The translations under genes were made by a program, and so were the position numbers. The notes under the pieces were generated by a model that worked only from the letters and a program-made list of their open reading frames with translations, did no database searches and was not told the origin of the DNA. Of a stretch of 64,000 bases of DNA, positions 13,234-37,280 are shown piece after piece. The first letter of the stretch is position 1. Each line of letters begins with the position of its first letter. Origin of the DNA: Undibacter mobilis (GTDB lineage Bacteria > Pseudomonadota > Alphaproteobacteria > Rhizobiales > Xanthobacteraceae); NCBI RefSeq assembly GCF_003367195.1, contig NZ_QRGO01000001.1:248001-312000 (forward strand). Reading direction: 5' to 3'.

Positions 13234-13766
13234 TGTCGTGGTCTCCTTCTTGAAACGACAACGGTGATCTAGATCGCGATCGCGCCACGCCAAGTGGTTA
13301 CATGGAGGATATCATGCGTTGTGATGACTCCCGCATCGCGGATCACGCGAGCGTGAGACACACGCGATAAAAATTTCACCGTGGTGTTTCCGCGCAACGC
13401 GAATGCGAAAAGCCCCAGCACAAAGCGAATTTCGACAGTGCGTGGAGCAGCAGCATCGCTTTGCCGCCACATCATCGCTCGCACTGACAGCGCGGCACCA
13501 CTCGCACTACAAATGTCTGCCATGCGCCTGTCGGCAGGACCATGCGGGGTACCAGGTGCGGTCATGGATGTACCCGCCTTCGGCGTAACGCCCCCGGAAC
13601 CGCGCGTCCTCTCCCCCGGCATTAACGGGCGGTTAACCATCATTGCCACCAAACCGCCCCGGTTCCTGAATGCCTTCGCCACAATCGGGTCGAACCAGCG
13701 CCGGGTTCCGGCGTTAGAAAGAAGAACGATTCAACATTCGAAACGGCTGGTTTTGACGGTTTCGTC
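13234..13766. other. 533-bp gap without a convincing gene; holds a CtrA box
   Basis: Open frames here on both strands have poor codon bias and no recognisable protein. The clearest signal is a perfect CtrA box at 13622-13636. A GANTC methylation site lies at about 13728. No terminator hairpin with a T-run was seen inside. Confidence 0.5.
13622..13636. promoter_or_regulatory. Perfect CtrA box (TTAA-N7-TTAA)
   Basis: TTAACGGGCGGTTAA, continuing into CCAT so the second half reads TTAACCAT, the classical CtrA half-site. It is 131 bp before the small membrane protein gene at 13767 and 389 bp before the start of the divergent secreted protein. Confidence 0.6.
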
Positions 13767-31880: not shown

Positions 31881-34865
31881 TCACTCGGACGCGATCTTCA
31901 GCGTGCGCGGCCGCGCCGGCTTTTCGATCAGCAGATCCAGCGCCTCGTCGGAGGTCATCGGCTCGCCGAAGGCAAAGCCTTGGGCATATTCGCAGCCCAT
32001 CTGGTAAAGCTCGACGGCATCGCTGTCGGTCTCGGCGCCCTCCGCCACCACTTCCATGCCGAGGTCGTGCGCCAGCGCGATGATCGAACGCAGGATGACC
32101 GGCCGGGTGCCGCGCGATGTCGTGCGCACGAAAGACTGGTCGATCTTGATGGTGTCGAAGGGGAAGCGCTGCAGGTAAGCCAGCGACGAATGCCCGGTGC
32201 CGAAATCGTCGAGTGACAGCCCGGCCCCCAGTTCCTTGATGCGGGTCAGCATCTGTGCAGCGTGTTCGGGGTTTTCCATCACCAGACTCTCGGTGATCTC
32301 GAGCTTGAGCGAGCCGCGCGTGATCGGCGTGCGGGAGAGAACGCCGCGCAGGTCCTGGATCAGATCGTGGCGCAGCAACTGCCGCGACGACACATTGACC
32401 GATGCAAACACCGGCTCATGCCCACGCGGCAGTTCGGCCTGCCAGCGCGCCAGTTGCTTGGCGGTGTGATCGAGTACGAACAGGCCGAGATCGACGATCA
32501 GGCCGATTTCCTCGGCGATGGAAATAAACTCGGCCGGCGACAGCCGCCCCATTTTCGGATGATCCCAGCGCGACAACGCCTCGAAGCCGGCGATGGCGCG
32601 ATCCTCCAGCCGCACGATCGGCTGGAACAGCACCTTGATTTCCTGCCGTTCGATGGCGCGGCGCAGTTCGGATTCCATGGTAAGCCGGTCGGTCTTGCGC
32701 GCACGCATGGCCGGCTTGAAGATTTCGATACGGTCGCCACCAATGCGCTTGGCGTAGTACATCGCCAGTTCGGCGTCTTTCAGCACTTCCTCGGTCCGGT
32801 GCGGCGCGCCTTCGGCCAGCGCCAGACCGATCGAAGCCGTGAGGAAGATTTCGCGATCATTGAATGCGATCGGTGCGCGCAGCGCGCGGCGCAAGGTTTC
32901 GGCAAAGGATACGATGCGTGCCGGTTCCTTCTCAGACAGGAGAATGATGGCGAACTGGTCGCCGGACAGGCGGGCCAACGTGTCCTGCGGCTTGAGCGCG
33001 CGACCGAGCCGGCGGGCAATGGTCAACAGAATGGAATCGCCGACCGCGATGCCGACCGAGTCATTGACCTGCTTGAAGCGGTCGAGGTCGATCACCATCA
33101 CCGACGGTCGGATATTGCTATCGGAGCGCGCGAAGGCAAACGCCGCTTCCATGCGGTCGATGAACAGCTCGCGGTTCGGCAGGCCCGTGAGATTGTCATG
33201 CACGGCGTCGAACAGCAGGCGCTCTTCAGCGTTCTTGAAATCGGTGACGTCGGTCAGCGTGCCGACCACGCGCACGACTTCGCCGTCGGAGCCGACCACC
33301 GGCCGGGCCTTCAGCGTGAACCACACATAATGTCCGTCGGCGGCGCGCAGGCGGAAGTCCTGCGTGAGTCGGCCGCGACGTTGTTCCAGCACGCTATCGA
33401 GCGACGCGCGGAACCGGTCGCGGTCGAGCGAGTGCAGGAATTCAAGCCAACTGGCGGCGGGGCCTTCGAGCGCGCCGCGCTTGAGGCCGAGCGTGTGTTC
33501 GGTTTCGGGGCTGGTGAACACCTTGTCGGCGGAGACGTCCCAGTCCCAGATCATGTCGCCGGCGCCGGTCAGCGCCAGCGCGCGTCGCTCGACGTCGGAA
33601 ACAATGCCGTGGGTGATGCCGCCGGCGAAAGCGTGCTGCATCACCGTGAAGCCGATCAGCATCACGATCAGCACCAGACCGCCGAGCAAGGCGGGGCCGA
33701 TAATGTCGTTCTGCACGGCGCCGGTGACGGCAAGGCCCGCGGCGAAGGTCCACACCACCAGCAGGATCCAGGTCGGGATCAGGAGCACGGCGCGGTCGAA
33801 GCCATGCGTCGACAGGTAGATCACCAGCCCCAGGCCGAACACAGCGATGAGAGCCAGCGAAATGCGCGCGATGCCCGACGCTACGGCCGGATCGAACACC
33901 GCAACCGCAACCAGCGCAGCAAGCGCCGCCAGCCAGGCGATGGTGATGTGGGCATAACGGACGTGCCAGCGCGACAGATTGAGGTAGGCGAACAAGAACA
34001 CCAGCAAGGTCGCCGACAGGATCGCCTCGCCGCAGGCGCGCCAGACGCGCTCGGCGCCGGCCGACATATCGAATACCTTGCCCCAGAAGCCGAAGTCGAT
34101 GCCGATATAGATCAGCACCGCCCAGCCCAATGCCGCCGCGGCCGGAAACATCACCGATCCCTTCACCACAAAGAGAATGGTGAGGAACAGCGCCAGCAGG
34201 CCGGCAATGCCGATAACGATGCCCTGATAGAGCGTGAAGGAGTTGACCTTGTCCTTGTAGGCGTCCGGCTCCCACAGATAGATCTGCGGCAGATTGCCGG
34301 TGCGCAGTTCGGCGACGAAGGTGATCACCGTGCCGGGGTCGAGCGTGACGCGGAAAATGTCGGCGGCGTTGCTCTCCTGCCGAACCGGACGATCGCCGGA
34401 GGACGGCGTGATGGCTACGACTCGCGACAGGCCGAGATCGGGCCAGATCAAGCCGGAGCCGACCATGCGGTAGTGCGGAACGACAATCAGCCGGTCGATC
34501 TGCTCGTCCGAATTATTGGTGAGCGCGAACACGGCCCAGTTGGTGTTGGCCTCGCGGCCGCGGACCTCGATGCGGCGCACGATGCCGTCGGGGCCAGGTG
34601 CGGTGGAAACCTGGATGCGATCGTTTTCGGTACGCTGACGCTGGGTGGCGGCAGTGAGGTCGATAGCCGGAGTGTCGAGACGAACGTTGACCGCTTCCAC
34701 GGCATGCGCGCCGACGCTCGCCACCATCGCTGCGGCGAGCACGAGCGCACTCAACAGTCCGTGCACGGCAGCTTTCAAAATCCGAACCCGCTTTTCGACC
34801 AGACGATATCCCGCTGGGCGCCCCGCTAAGATGAGTAGCGGGCGATGAGGCCACCCGGCAAGCAT
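31881..34865 (-). CDS. Membrane-bound sensor with degenerate GGDEF and intact EAL domains
   Basis: A 994-residue inner-membrane protein. After an N-terminal hydrophobic signal-anchor (~30-53) comes a periplasmic domain (~55-205), about seven membrane helices (~213-415), a PAS domain (~430-545), a GGDEF-like domain (~550-720) whose active site is SGDQF instead of GGDEF, and an EAL domain (~730-980). The EAL domain keeps EAL ([10 protein letters not shown]), the [10 protein letters not shown] metal site and EVVAEGAET. So it should be a cyclic-di-GMP phosphodiesterase whose GGDEF part is regulatory. The architecture resembles 7TMR-DISM sensors. The ATG at 34865 lacks a good ribosome site; the true start may be slightly downstream. 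Confidence 0.9.
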
Positions 34866-36095: not shown

Positions 36096-36290
36096 ATGGC
36101 AGCTTTCGACGACGATGACCGGCCGAAAAAGAAAATCGCGCATGAGGTGGGGCAGGATCTCAGTCTGCTCTCGGTCGATGAGATCACGGCGCGGATCGGC
36201 CTGCTTCAGGACGAAATCAAAAGACTCGAAGCCGACAAGGCGCAGAAGCATGCCAAGCGCGCCGCCGCCGATCAGTTCTTCAAGAGTTAA
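36096..36290 (+). CDS. DUF1192 protein
   Basis: A 64-residue cytoplasmic protein: an acidic N-terminus (DDDDRPKKK), then VGQDLSLLSVDEITARIGLLQDEIKRLEADKAQK, the DUF1192 core with a short coiled-coil, and a charged tail. The family is restricted to alphaproteobacteria, function unknown. It lies just upstream of the CtrA-box/sRNA region and rcdA; the grouping with cell-cycle genes is context only. Confidence 0.85.
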   Translation: MAAFDDDDRPKKKIAHEVGQDLSLLSVDEITARIGLLQDEIKRLEADKAQKHAKRAAADQFFKS

Positions 36291-36355
36291 TATGGTTAAC
36301 GGCGGTGGTAATTTGGTGCGGCGACGCAATTGTTAAGTCGCAACCTAATTCACAG

Positions 36356-36370
36356 CTTAACGCGACATTA
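36356..36370. promoter_or_regulatory. Perfect CtrA box (TTAA-N7-TTAA)
   Basis: TTAACGCGACATTAA matches the CtrA consensus at all eight fixed bases. It lies about 38 bp before the first hairpin of the sRNA candidate, with a TATTAC -10-like hexamer at 36382-36387, and 386 bp before rcdA. Confidence 0.7.
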
Positions 36371-36390
36371 AGCTTTCCCGCCTATTACTG

Positions 36391-36492
36391 AGATCTGTCC
36401 ATCTTCATGGACTTTGAGTGGCTCCTGTCCACTCTGTTTGACGCCTCCCTGTTATCGAACTTGAGCCGCCGGCAACGGCGGCTCCTTTTTTT
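36391..36492 (+). ncRNA. Candidate trans-acting small RNA with CU-rich loops
   Basis: Three consecutive hairpins: GTCCAT (36396-36401)/ATGGAC (36406-36411) with CTTC loop; GAGTGG (36415-36420)/CCACTC (36429-36434) whose loop contains CTCCT; and a terminator stem GAGCCGCCG (36463-36471)/CGGCGGCTC (36476-36484) with a T-run. Between the second and third lies single-stranded GACGCCTCCCTG. The CTCCT and CCTCCC motifs are anti-Shine-Dalgarno-like, as in Rhizobiales riboregulators such as AbcR and EcpR1. Length (~100 nt) and three-hairpin layout also fit EcpR1 (SmelC291), but this identity is my guess. Confidence 0.6.
36463..36492 (+). terminator. Rho-independent terminator of the sRNA candidate
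   Basis: Perfect 9-bp stem with GCAA tetraloop, followed by CTTTTTTT. No annotated gene upstream on the plus strand reaches it without crossing 170 bp from the DUF1192 gene, so it most likely ends the sRNA. Confidence 0.85.
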
Positions 36493-36755
36493 GTAAGTTG
36501 TTTTATATTTGTTCGCGGCCGTTGTGCCGTTTTGACGCAAAGGTCCGATCTGGGCTGTGGTTTCCGCAGCCGTAGCAACTATGTCGCAAGCTTTGCCGGC
36601 CGAGGATATGGACAGAACGACCGGTGGCGCGCATCCTTACCCAATCGTGAACGGCGCCGGGCCGTGGCTAAATATCCGTCAATGTCCGGCAACGGCAAAG
36701 AGCGCCTAAGAACAATTACAAGCGGCGCGTTCAGTGTTTTGGTGAGGCGTAGCGT

Positions 36756-37280
36756 ATGTCCGAGCACAGTATGGTTAACCCGCATGAACCGGTGGCGTTC
36801 GGCGAGCGGTTGGCGAACTCACAGGCCTTCTCCGAGCTGTTCCGCAGCGGCATGGCGCTGGTGGAGGAAACCGCCGGCTATCTCGACGGTCCGGGCCGCA
36901 CCGAATCCAAGCAGCTCGCCCGTGCCGCGGCGCTGGCCTACGCTACCGAGAGCATGCGGCTGACGACGCGGCTGATGCAGATCGCGTCCTGGCTGCTCCT
37001 GCACCGCGCCGTGAAGGAAGGCGAGATGTCGCTCGCCCAGGCCAACAAGGAAAAGACCAAGGTCAAACTGTCGGCGCTCGACAACCACGACCCGAACAAC
37101 GTCGAGCTGTTGCCGCAGCAGCTGCGCGACCTTATCGACCGCGCTCAGAAGCTGCGCATGCAGGTGCGCCGCCTCGACCAGACCATTCATACCGTGCCGG
37201 ACGAACAGGCGCCGTCGATCAATCCGGTCGAGCACCAGCTTGGTCTGTTGAAAGCAGCGTTTGGCCGCGAAAGCGCCTAA
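36756..37280 (+). CDS. rcdA: RcdA, adaptor for CtrA degradation (DUF1465)
   Basis: A 174-residue cytoplasmic helical protein matching the DUF1465/RcdA family (SEHSMVNPHEPVAFGERLANSQAFSELFRSGMALVEETAGYLDGPGR, TRLMQIASWLLLHRAVKEGEM). In Caulobacter RcdA works with CpdR and PopA to bring CtrA to ClpXP at the G1-S transition. A half CtrA motif (GGTTAACC) overlaps codons 6-7. Upstream lie the CtrA box and sRNA candidate; downstream a bidirectional terminator shared with rpmE. Confidence 0.9.
   Translation: MSEHSMVNPHEPVAFGERLANSQAFSELFRSGMALVEETAGYLDGPGRTESKQLARAAALAYATESMRLTTRLMQIASWLLLHRAVKEGEMSLAQANKEKTKVKLSALDNHDPNNVELLPQQLRDLIDRAQKLRMQVRRLDQTIHTVPDEQAPSINPVEHQLGLLKAAFGRESA

Follow-up and report, generated by a model that had tools for sequence, protein, structure and literature searches.

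The window, by which we mean the whole 64,000-nt stretch of Undibacter mobilis DNA that was analysed, contains a predicted small RNA (sRNA) gene in the interval between a DUF1192 gene and rcdA (Table 1). RcdA is an adaptor for CtrA proteolysis. The original prediction had described a CtrA-boxed, terminator-ended sRNA gene of ~100 nt with an anti-Shine-Dalgarno (anti-SD) stretch, kept beside rcdA, and this description is borne out; both flanking genes were recovered by Pfam, rcdA also by NCBIfam. The ends of the sRNA are predicted, the 5' end from the position of the -10 element and the 3' end from the T run. Also near the rcdA locus, at 31881-34865, lies a gene for a 7TM-PAS-GGDEF-EAL protein, a cyclic-di-GMP enzyme.

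Table 1. Features of the sRNA-rcdA interval (window coordinates)
Feature	Position	Strand	Basis or remark
DUF1192 gene, upstream syntenic flank	36096..36290	+	PF06698
CtrA box, full TTAA-N7-TTAA, TTAACGCGACATTAA	36357..36371	+	motif search
-10 element TATTAC	36383..36388	+	sequence reading; promoter columns of 136 relatives
BjrC1505-family sRNA, predicted ~99 nt	36394..36492	+	Rfam RF02356
Stem-loop 1, GUCCAU-CUUC-AUGGAC	36397..36412	+	folding, covariation
Stem-loop 2 (SL2), CUCCUGU loop	36416..36434	+	folding, covariation; loop conserved in some families only
Single-stranded core UUUGACGCCUCCCUGUU	36437..36453	+	conservation; proposed seed for target pairing in the 5' part, UUUGACGCCUC
GACGCCTCCCTG, unpaired or weakly paired	36440..36451	+	folding
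Intrinsic terminator, 9-bp stem and T7	36463..36492	+	stem 36463-36484, T7 at 36486-36492; helix 3 covaries
GAGGCGT in rcdA ribosome-binding region, complement of core ACGCCUC	36744..36750	+	
rcdA (DUF1465), proposed target	36756..37280	+	PF07323 E 4.4e-56; NF051867 211 bits, cut-off 170

The CtrA box is perfect, as had been claimed, although its coordinates had been placed one base too low (they are 36357-36371), and the predicted TATTAC hexamer was found at 36383-36388. Relative to the putative start site, the TTAA-N7-TTAA box overlaps the -35 position and the -10 element follows, which is the layout of CtrA-activated promoters. CtrA can also repress, and activation here is our inference. 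Full boxes are rare, with two in the window against 0.02 expected, and the second one, at 13622-13636, lies within overlapping frames where no obvious promoter role was seen. Among 141 distinct rcdA-linked promoters, 136 match the box at 7/8 positions or better (57 at 8/8 and 79 at 7/8, the other five at 6/8), compared with ~17 (16.6) expected from dinucleotide shuffles, which yield 3.0 boxes at 8/8 and 13.6 at 7/8. When promoters are counted whether rcdA-linked or not, the figure is 156 of 170. The box starts 98 to 78 nt upstream of the core, nearly always 92 to 78, and a -10 consensus, TATTACT, is found 26-32 nt past the box start. A downstream control window (60-125 nt past the core) also exceeds shuffles, with 21 full and 14 seven-of-eight boxes among the 141, because in 25 loci, many of them Mesorhizobium- or Phyllobacterium-like, another full CtrA box lies past the terminator and ahead of rcdA. 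S. meliloti and Shinella likewise have a second full box at this place.

As had been proposed, the predicted transcript contains three hairpins, a single-stranded stretch and a T7 terminator; the hairpins are backed by folding and covariation. The folding z-score for 36385-36500 is -6.1, and 0 of 200 shuffles fold as well. In an alignment of 85 relatives, hand-picked from 113 non-redundant sequences (28 were omitted as near-duplicates, because of odd cut points or because they aligned poorly), the 16 pairs of the three helices are formed in 96.6% of cells, compared with 91.6% in shuffles and 38-60% in slid versions, an advantage over the latter to which deriving the structure from the same alignment contributes. 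Two-sided changes are seen in 12 of the 16 pairs versus 4.1 in shuffles, and the covariation score of 0.199 versus 0.115 may, like these counts, be somewhat flattered by the hand choice of rows. The outer pair of helix 1, for example, is AU in 44 and GC in 28 of the 85 rows. A helix with 4 bp or more can form in 80% of 90 linkers versus 54% of shuffled ones, which does not establish a weak third hairpin presenting the core. The CTCCT that had been noted in the second loop is indeed there in the window, but it is absent in Mesorhizobium/Phyllobacterium-type and Devosia relatives. Unlike this loop, the core UUUGACGCCUCCCUGUU is nearly invariant among relatives, and TTTGACGCCTCCCTGTT persists in several families that lack CTCCT in SL2. 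The constant element is the single-stranded core rather than the CTCCT loop.

The RNA is not new, as it would have been on the original prediction if it were not EcpR1, since Rfam already lists it as BjrC1505 (RF02356), an sRNA of Alphaproteobacteria. Positions 36351-36491 match RF02356 over model positions 1-140 of 140 with 124.5 bits (gathering score 50, E 7.9e-24, cmscan), and this is the one RF02356 match in the host genome. The window locus is a member in which core and terminator are like those of the family, with no difference seen; the Rfam model itself starts upstream of the CtrA box, before the likely transcript start. Our own covariance model R1, whose alignment includes the window sequence itself, matches 36388-36491 with 98.9 bits. 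BjrC1505 has reportedly been verified in B. japonicum. It goes back to Madhugiri et al. 2012, as cited in excerpts of PMC4842269 and PMC7143759, and the excerpts of PMC4842269 describe the predicted sRNAs of its ref. 16 as validated, without naming BjrC1505. Within the open-licence literature, we found no regulator, target or function for BjrC1505; the founding paper lies outside that literature and may mention the CtrA box. While the RNA family is already known, what we add is the promoter reading, the linkage to rcdA and the targets.

Far from being confined to close relatives, the RNA is widespread in the class. RF02356 was found in 52 of 61 host-family genomes, and the nine others (G001, G006, G013, G018, G041, G048, G051, G057 and G060) may have lost it or carry a strongly diverged copy. 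Class-wide, RF02356 was found in 40 of 385 genomes at E≤0.001, 17 of them above the gathering score, and R1 in 48 of 385. These counts are low estimates because filters were strict and few candidates were scored per genome, and because R1 gives no more than 37-39 bits to the copies in S. meliloti, Shinella and Methylobacterium bullatum. RF02356 misses the S. meliloti and Shinella copies, and gave nothing in 14 control genomes, Caulobacter included. Both diverged copies, in L498 (1665-1802, an S. meliloti record labelled pSymB, 3.7 Mb) and L499 (Shinella), lie between DUF1192 and rcdA; they have the CtrA box, and their core, CTGATTTTTCTCCCTGTT, lacks GACGCC. A scan of named genomes for TTTGAYGCCTCCCTGTT gave at least 118 loci, the matches listed including Bradyrhizobium, Rhodopseudomonas, Mesorhizobium, Phyllobacterium, Bosea, Devosia, Methylobacterium, Roseibium, Stappia, Kiloniella and Sneathiella. 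This set was selected by the core and is thus no proof of its invariance; the core is, however, nearly the same in loci L031-L058, which were found by covariance model alone. Two of these, L053 and L054 (family f105), have tandem sRNA copies ~200 nt apart, with a full CtrA box near each copy in L053. Searching a plasmid collection with the RNA and with DUF6101 gave no match.

The linkage to rcdA was assessed in 176 loci, 175 of which have a recognisable core (174 distinct stretches, as a genome may come from two sources). L057 has no recognisable core by our rule, and the orientation of L125 follows a core-like match that runs opposite to its flanks. In 146 of the 175 loci, rcdA follows in the same orientation no more than 1,700 nt downstream (in 144, no more than 700 nt), with a median of 239 nt from core to rcdA match. 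DUF1192 precedes the sRNA by at most 700 nt, also in the same orientation, in 114. By source, rcdA is downstream in 30/30 host-family loci, 16/27 distant loci and 100/118 loci of the named-genome scan (of at least 118). In the other 11 distant loci (one a contig end) rcdA was not recognised, yet every one of them retains a CtrA box at 7/8 or better and six retain DUF1192 within 700 nt; rcdA may be too diverged there, or absent. In ten distant loci, L035, L036, L037, L039, L043, L049, L051, L052, L055 and L058, rcdA was not recognised in ~1.5 kb downstream. The scan loci lacking rcdA, 18 in all, include several close to contig ends and a number with neither flank nor box; the latter, with labels such as Clostridium, Bacteroides, Lentisphaerae or Flavobacteriaceae, probably represent chance matches or contaminants.

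Could the core pair with the rcdA leader? We compared the 19-nt core with 40 cores in which the flanks were shuffled around CCTCCC, on leaders from seven gene sets. rcdA came out best, as on average 8% of the flank-shuffled cores equalled the real one, compared with 19% for DUF2794, 48% for rpmE, 58% each for gcrA and DUF1192, 70% for QOR and 71% for ctrA. The ctrA and gcrA leaders, which had been put forward as possible targets, were thus not favoured over shuffled cores and we rejected both, yet the host's own ctrA scores -4.8 kcal/mol, like its own rcdA (-4.9). DUF2794 was rejected too, since values of ≤0.05 were reached in just 4/32 host-family and 0/28 distant leaders, despite three pattern matches. 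The motif [AG][AG]GGCGT is present within 25 nt of the start in 60 of 135 distinct rcdA leaders, which, orthologous leaders being related, does not amount to 60 events, versus 9 of 279 other SD-bearing long ORFs from the same loci and window, with script-chosen start codons. It occurs in 26/30 host-family leaders and 34/105 elsewhere, and its 10-bp form, [AG][AG]GGCGT[CT][AG][AG], in 12/30 and 19/105. In aligned host-family rcdA leaders, GAGGCGT, the complement of ACGCCUC in the core, is the longest 80%-conserved block upstream of the start, and G and GT just before it also reach 80%.

Outside the host family, the match is uneven. None of 14 distant rcdA leaders (L031-L058) has [AG][AG]GGCGT, although sRNA and rcdA are both present, and as single examples Shinella rcdA has AACAGGGA, with 8 bp to UCCCUGUU, and S. 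meliloti rcdA only a 6-bp fit to its own sRNA core. Since distant families are without the motif and 11 of the 27 distant loci are without a recognisable rcdA, rcdA cannot be what keeps the core invariant across the class. Complementarity beyond the SD is conserved in the host family and some others, but is weak in the window's own rcdA, where the site has 7 bp and -4.9 kcal/mol net, 4 of 44 window leaders are about as good and 13% of shuffled cores do as well. In the window's own strain, an rcdA arm is therefore plausible but not compelling.

The extended site recurs at other genes. We searched 61 whole related genomes for GAGGCGTYAA-N0-6-ATG and inspected all 49 places found, compared with 14 for the reversed pattern. 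Twenty-two are at three families (named by PF19596, NF047395 and NF051867), namely rcdA (10 places, 8 genera), DUF6101 (8 places, 7 genera) and ldtR (4 places, 3 genera), while the other 27 are elsewhere, many ahead of very short frames. The pattern was picked after rcdA had been seen, so the recurrence at rcdA is not independent, but that at DUF6101 and ldtR is; the ldtR and DUF6101 leaders were taken mainly where the pattern matched, hence their counts are without denominators. Each of the 22 sites comes from a different genome, and the nine RF02356-negative genomes contribute none (hypergeometric 0.012, relatedness ignored); as the nine may be one lineage, this is only suggestive. As single examples, the ldtR ribosome sites in S. 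meliloti and Shinella, whose core lacks GACGCC, read GTGAGGCACG and GTGAGGCAGA, without GCGT, and that of Methylobacterium aquaticum reads GTGAGGCGTT (gene side alone). Four ldtR-like genes, from Tritonibacter, Pseudorhodobacter, Paracoccus and Niveispirillum, have no such site.

Within the host genome, other genes have stronger predicted sites than rcdA. The DUF6101 gene (G000:C1:2199978), chosen for complementarity before scoring and encoding a protein 85% identical to a Pseudolabrys one, has an 11-bp perfect site (-11.4 kcal/mol) that beats all 44 window leaders after accessibility is taken into account. An earlier accessibility score, which let duplexes enter SL2 and ranked this gene 26 of 44 and rcdA 8 of 44, was replaced. 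The best predicted target is a methionine-synthase-like gene (L218), with 13 bp and -14.3 kcal/mol net. A 27-aa hydrophobic ORF (L217 1420-1503, minus strand; G000:C1:2097808) reaches -13.5 kcal/mol, its ribosome site AACAGGGAGGC forming 11 bp with the other half of the core. We rejected an acyl-CoA dehydrogenase gene that could form 12 bp, since taking accessibility into account removed its advantage.

The sequence shows the family, the conserved CtrA box, the synteny in most loci, the covarying hairpins and the complementary sites in some relatives. The most economical circuit would be CtrA -> sRNA -| RcdA -| CtrA. A CtrA-dependent promoter, with the box overlapping its -35 position, would drive transcription of the BjrC1505-family sRNA up to the intrinsic terminator, and two hairpins would hold up the single-stranded core. 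The UUUGACGCCUC part of the core would pair in the cell with ribosome-binding regions of the form GAGGCGU(Y)AA just before the start codon, blocking translation of a small mRNA set that would comprise rcdA and a DUF6101 gene, joined in relatives by ldtR. With RcdA promoting CtrA proteolysis, the loop would be double-negative, i.e., positive, and would prolong the CtrA-high phase. We give slightly less than an even chance to BjrC1505 being a CtrA-driven trans-acting sRNA that blocks translation of rcdA and other mRNAs, so that CtrA delays its own destruction. More tentatively, the sRNA may be an RNA arm of the CtrA proteolysis circuit, silencing rcdA and, in relatives, ldtR and a DUF6101 gene. 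The closing of a CtrA loop, raised in the original prediction, is favoured indirectly, by the ability of the core to pair with rcdA ribosome sites across many relatives, and weakened by the 7-bp site at the locus itself. Going by sequence, the potential pairing suggests that CtrA may protect itself through an sRNA acting at the rcdA ribosome site.

Such a circuit would fit observations in S. meliloti. According to excerpts of PMC4433202, CtrA is bound at rcdA in ChIP-seq while CtrA depletion leaves rcdA mRNA unchanged, and RcdA dose sets the CtrA level. The CtrA-boxed sRNA in the S. meliloti interval, or the second box, could be the cause of CtrA binding there, and the presence of CtrA upstream of rcdA without a change in rcdA mRNA would be explained. 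CtrA would then set its own half-life via RNA in many Rhizobiales, among them nodule bacteria, in which the rcdA transcript rises with bacteroid formation (PMC4433202, excerpts). The CtrA-sRNA link would be ancient in Alphaproteobacteria, with a younger or lineage-specific rcdA arm. An orphan RNA family would thereby acquire a regulator and a neighbour, along with a few candidate targets that can be tested.

The alternative that survives best, although we consider it less likely, is that the CtrA-controlled sRNA acts mainly on other mRNAs, either as a general anti-SD RNA or on one universal target yet to be found, and that its complementarity to rcdA is incidental, the rcdA site being an SD extended by a conserved GCGU retained for other reasons. 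The core and the CtrA box persist even where a site is missing from rcdA or no rcdA was recognised, the best predicted targets in the host genome are the methionine-synthase-like gene, the 27-aa ORF and DUF6101, and ctrA leaders likewise keep similar ribosome-binding sites without complementarity. The rcdA-less distant loci and the score of the host's own ctrA make this alternative somewhat more likely, and silencing of rcdA slightly less so. The search for a target of the other half of the core, however, yielded no counterpart to the 10, 8 and 4 places of GAGGCGTYAA. Its complement ACAGGGAGGC precedes an ATG at 105 places in the 61 genomes (control, 10), but among 100 rows of the 105 (one place appearing twice) no gene recurs comparably: DUF2794 three times, a TctC-like group five times, and otherwise pairs within one genus or genome.

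It is considerably less probable that the RNA is a cis-acting leader, i.e., that the CtrA promoter also serves rcdA, with transcription mostly terminated and the core of the read-through mRNA pairing with the rcdA site. Core and rcdA are on the same strand at the median distance given above, and if 36393-36790 were transcribed as one RNA, the core would pair with the rcdA site at a mean probability of 0.85, with values over 0.3 in 34 of 68 motif-carrying relatives (both figures without a shuffled control). The T7 terminator argues against such a leader, as do the second full box in 25 loci and in S. meliloti and Shinella, which hints that rcdA has its own promoter there, and the sharing of the site by ldtR and DUF6101, which are not beside the sRNA.

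That the RNA is a homologue of EcpR1 (SmelC291) acting on dnaA and gcrA, as first supposed, is very improbable. The idea came from a similar layout, and none of our results supports it. According to excerpts of PMC4414408, EcpR1 is also a Rhizobiales trans-sRNA touching cell-cycle mRNAs. However, the EcpR1 gene lies at a different genomic locus, downstream of divK-pleD in S. meliloti, where it is under stress/stringent-response control and targets dnaA and gcrA (PMC4414408, excerpts), and beside rpmG in Methylosinus (PMC12403871, excerpts). Here, the flanks are DUF1192 and rcdA, S. meliloti has a separate, diverged BjrC1505-family copy beside rcdA, and gcrA leaders show no preference. The comparison with Rfam EcpR1 and AbcR families that had been called for, run by cmscan on 36200-36600, assigned RF02356 and gave no EcpR1- or AbcR-named match at E≤1, which led us to reject AbcR; for EcpR1, this negative rests on family names, and Rfam 15 may hold no such entry.

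A small protein gene in place of an RNA is equally improbable: the window does have an ATG frame of ~28 codons that starts at 36408 and spans the core as far as the T run, but in just 15 of 144 loci does a frame beginning with ATG extend into the core (counts allowing GTG/TTG starts were not informative), the hairpins covary, and no conserved peptide was seen, as one-base indels between SL2 and core in relatives with invariant flanks (spacing 21 to 25 nt) break the frame.

Two further RNAs resemble the one described here. CcnA of Caulobacter is, according to excerpts of PMC8959179, a CtrA-boxed ncRNA that acts on the CtrA circuit via ribosome sites, but it is 182 nt long, located at the replication origin and targets ctrA and gcrA; we rejected homology because the window sRNA sits between DUF1192 and rcdA rather than in the replication origin. 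The 3' half of the window sRNA is similar to suhB/MmgR (RF00519, alpha-r8), with CCUCCCU and a GCCGCC terminator, at 24.3 bits, below the gathering score of 41, and a common origin of the two RNAs is possible. The host genome has, at G000:C1:357134-357209, an RF00519 match above the cut-off, with 73.8 bits.
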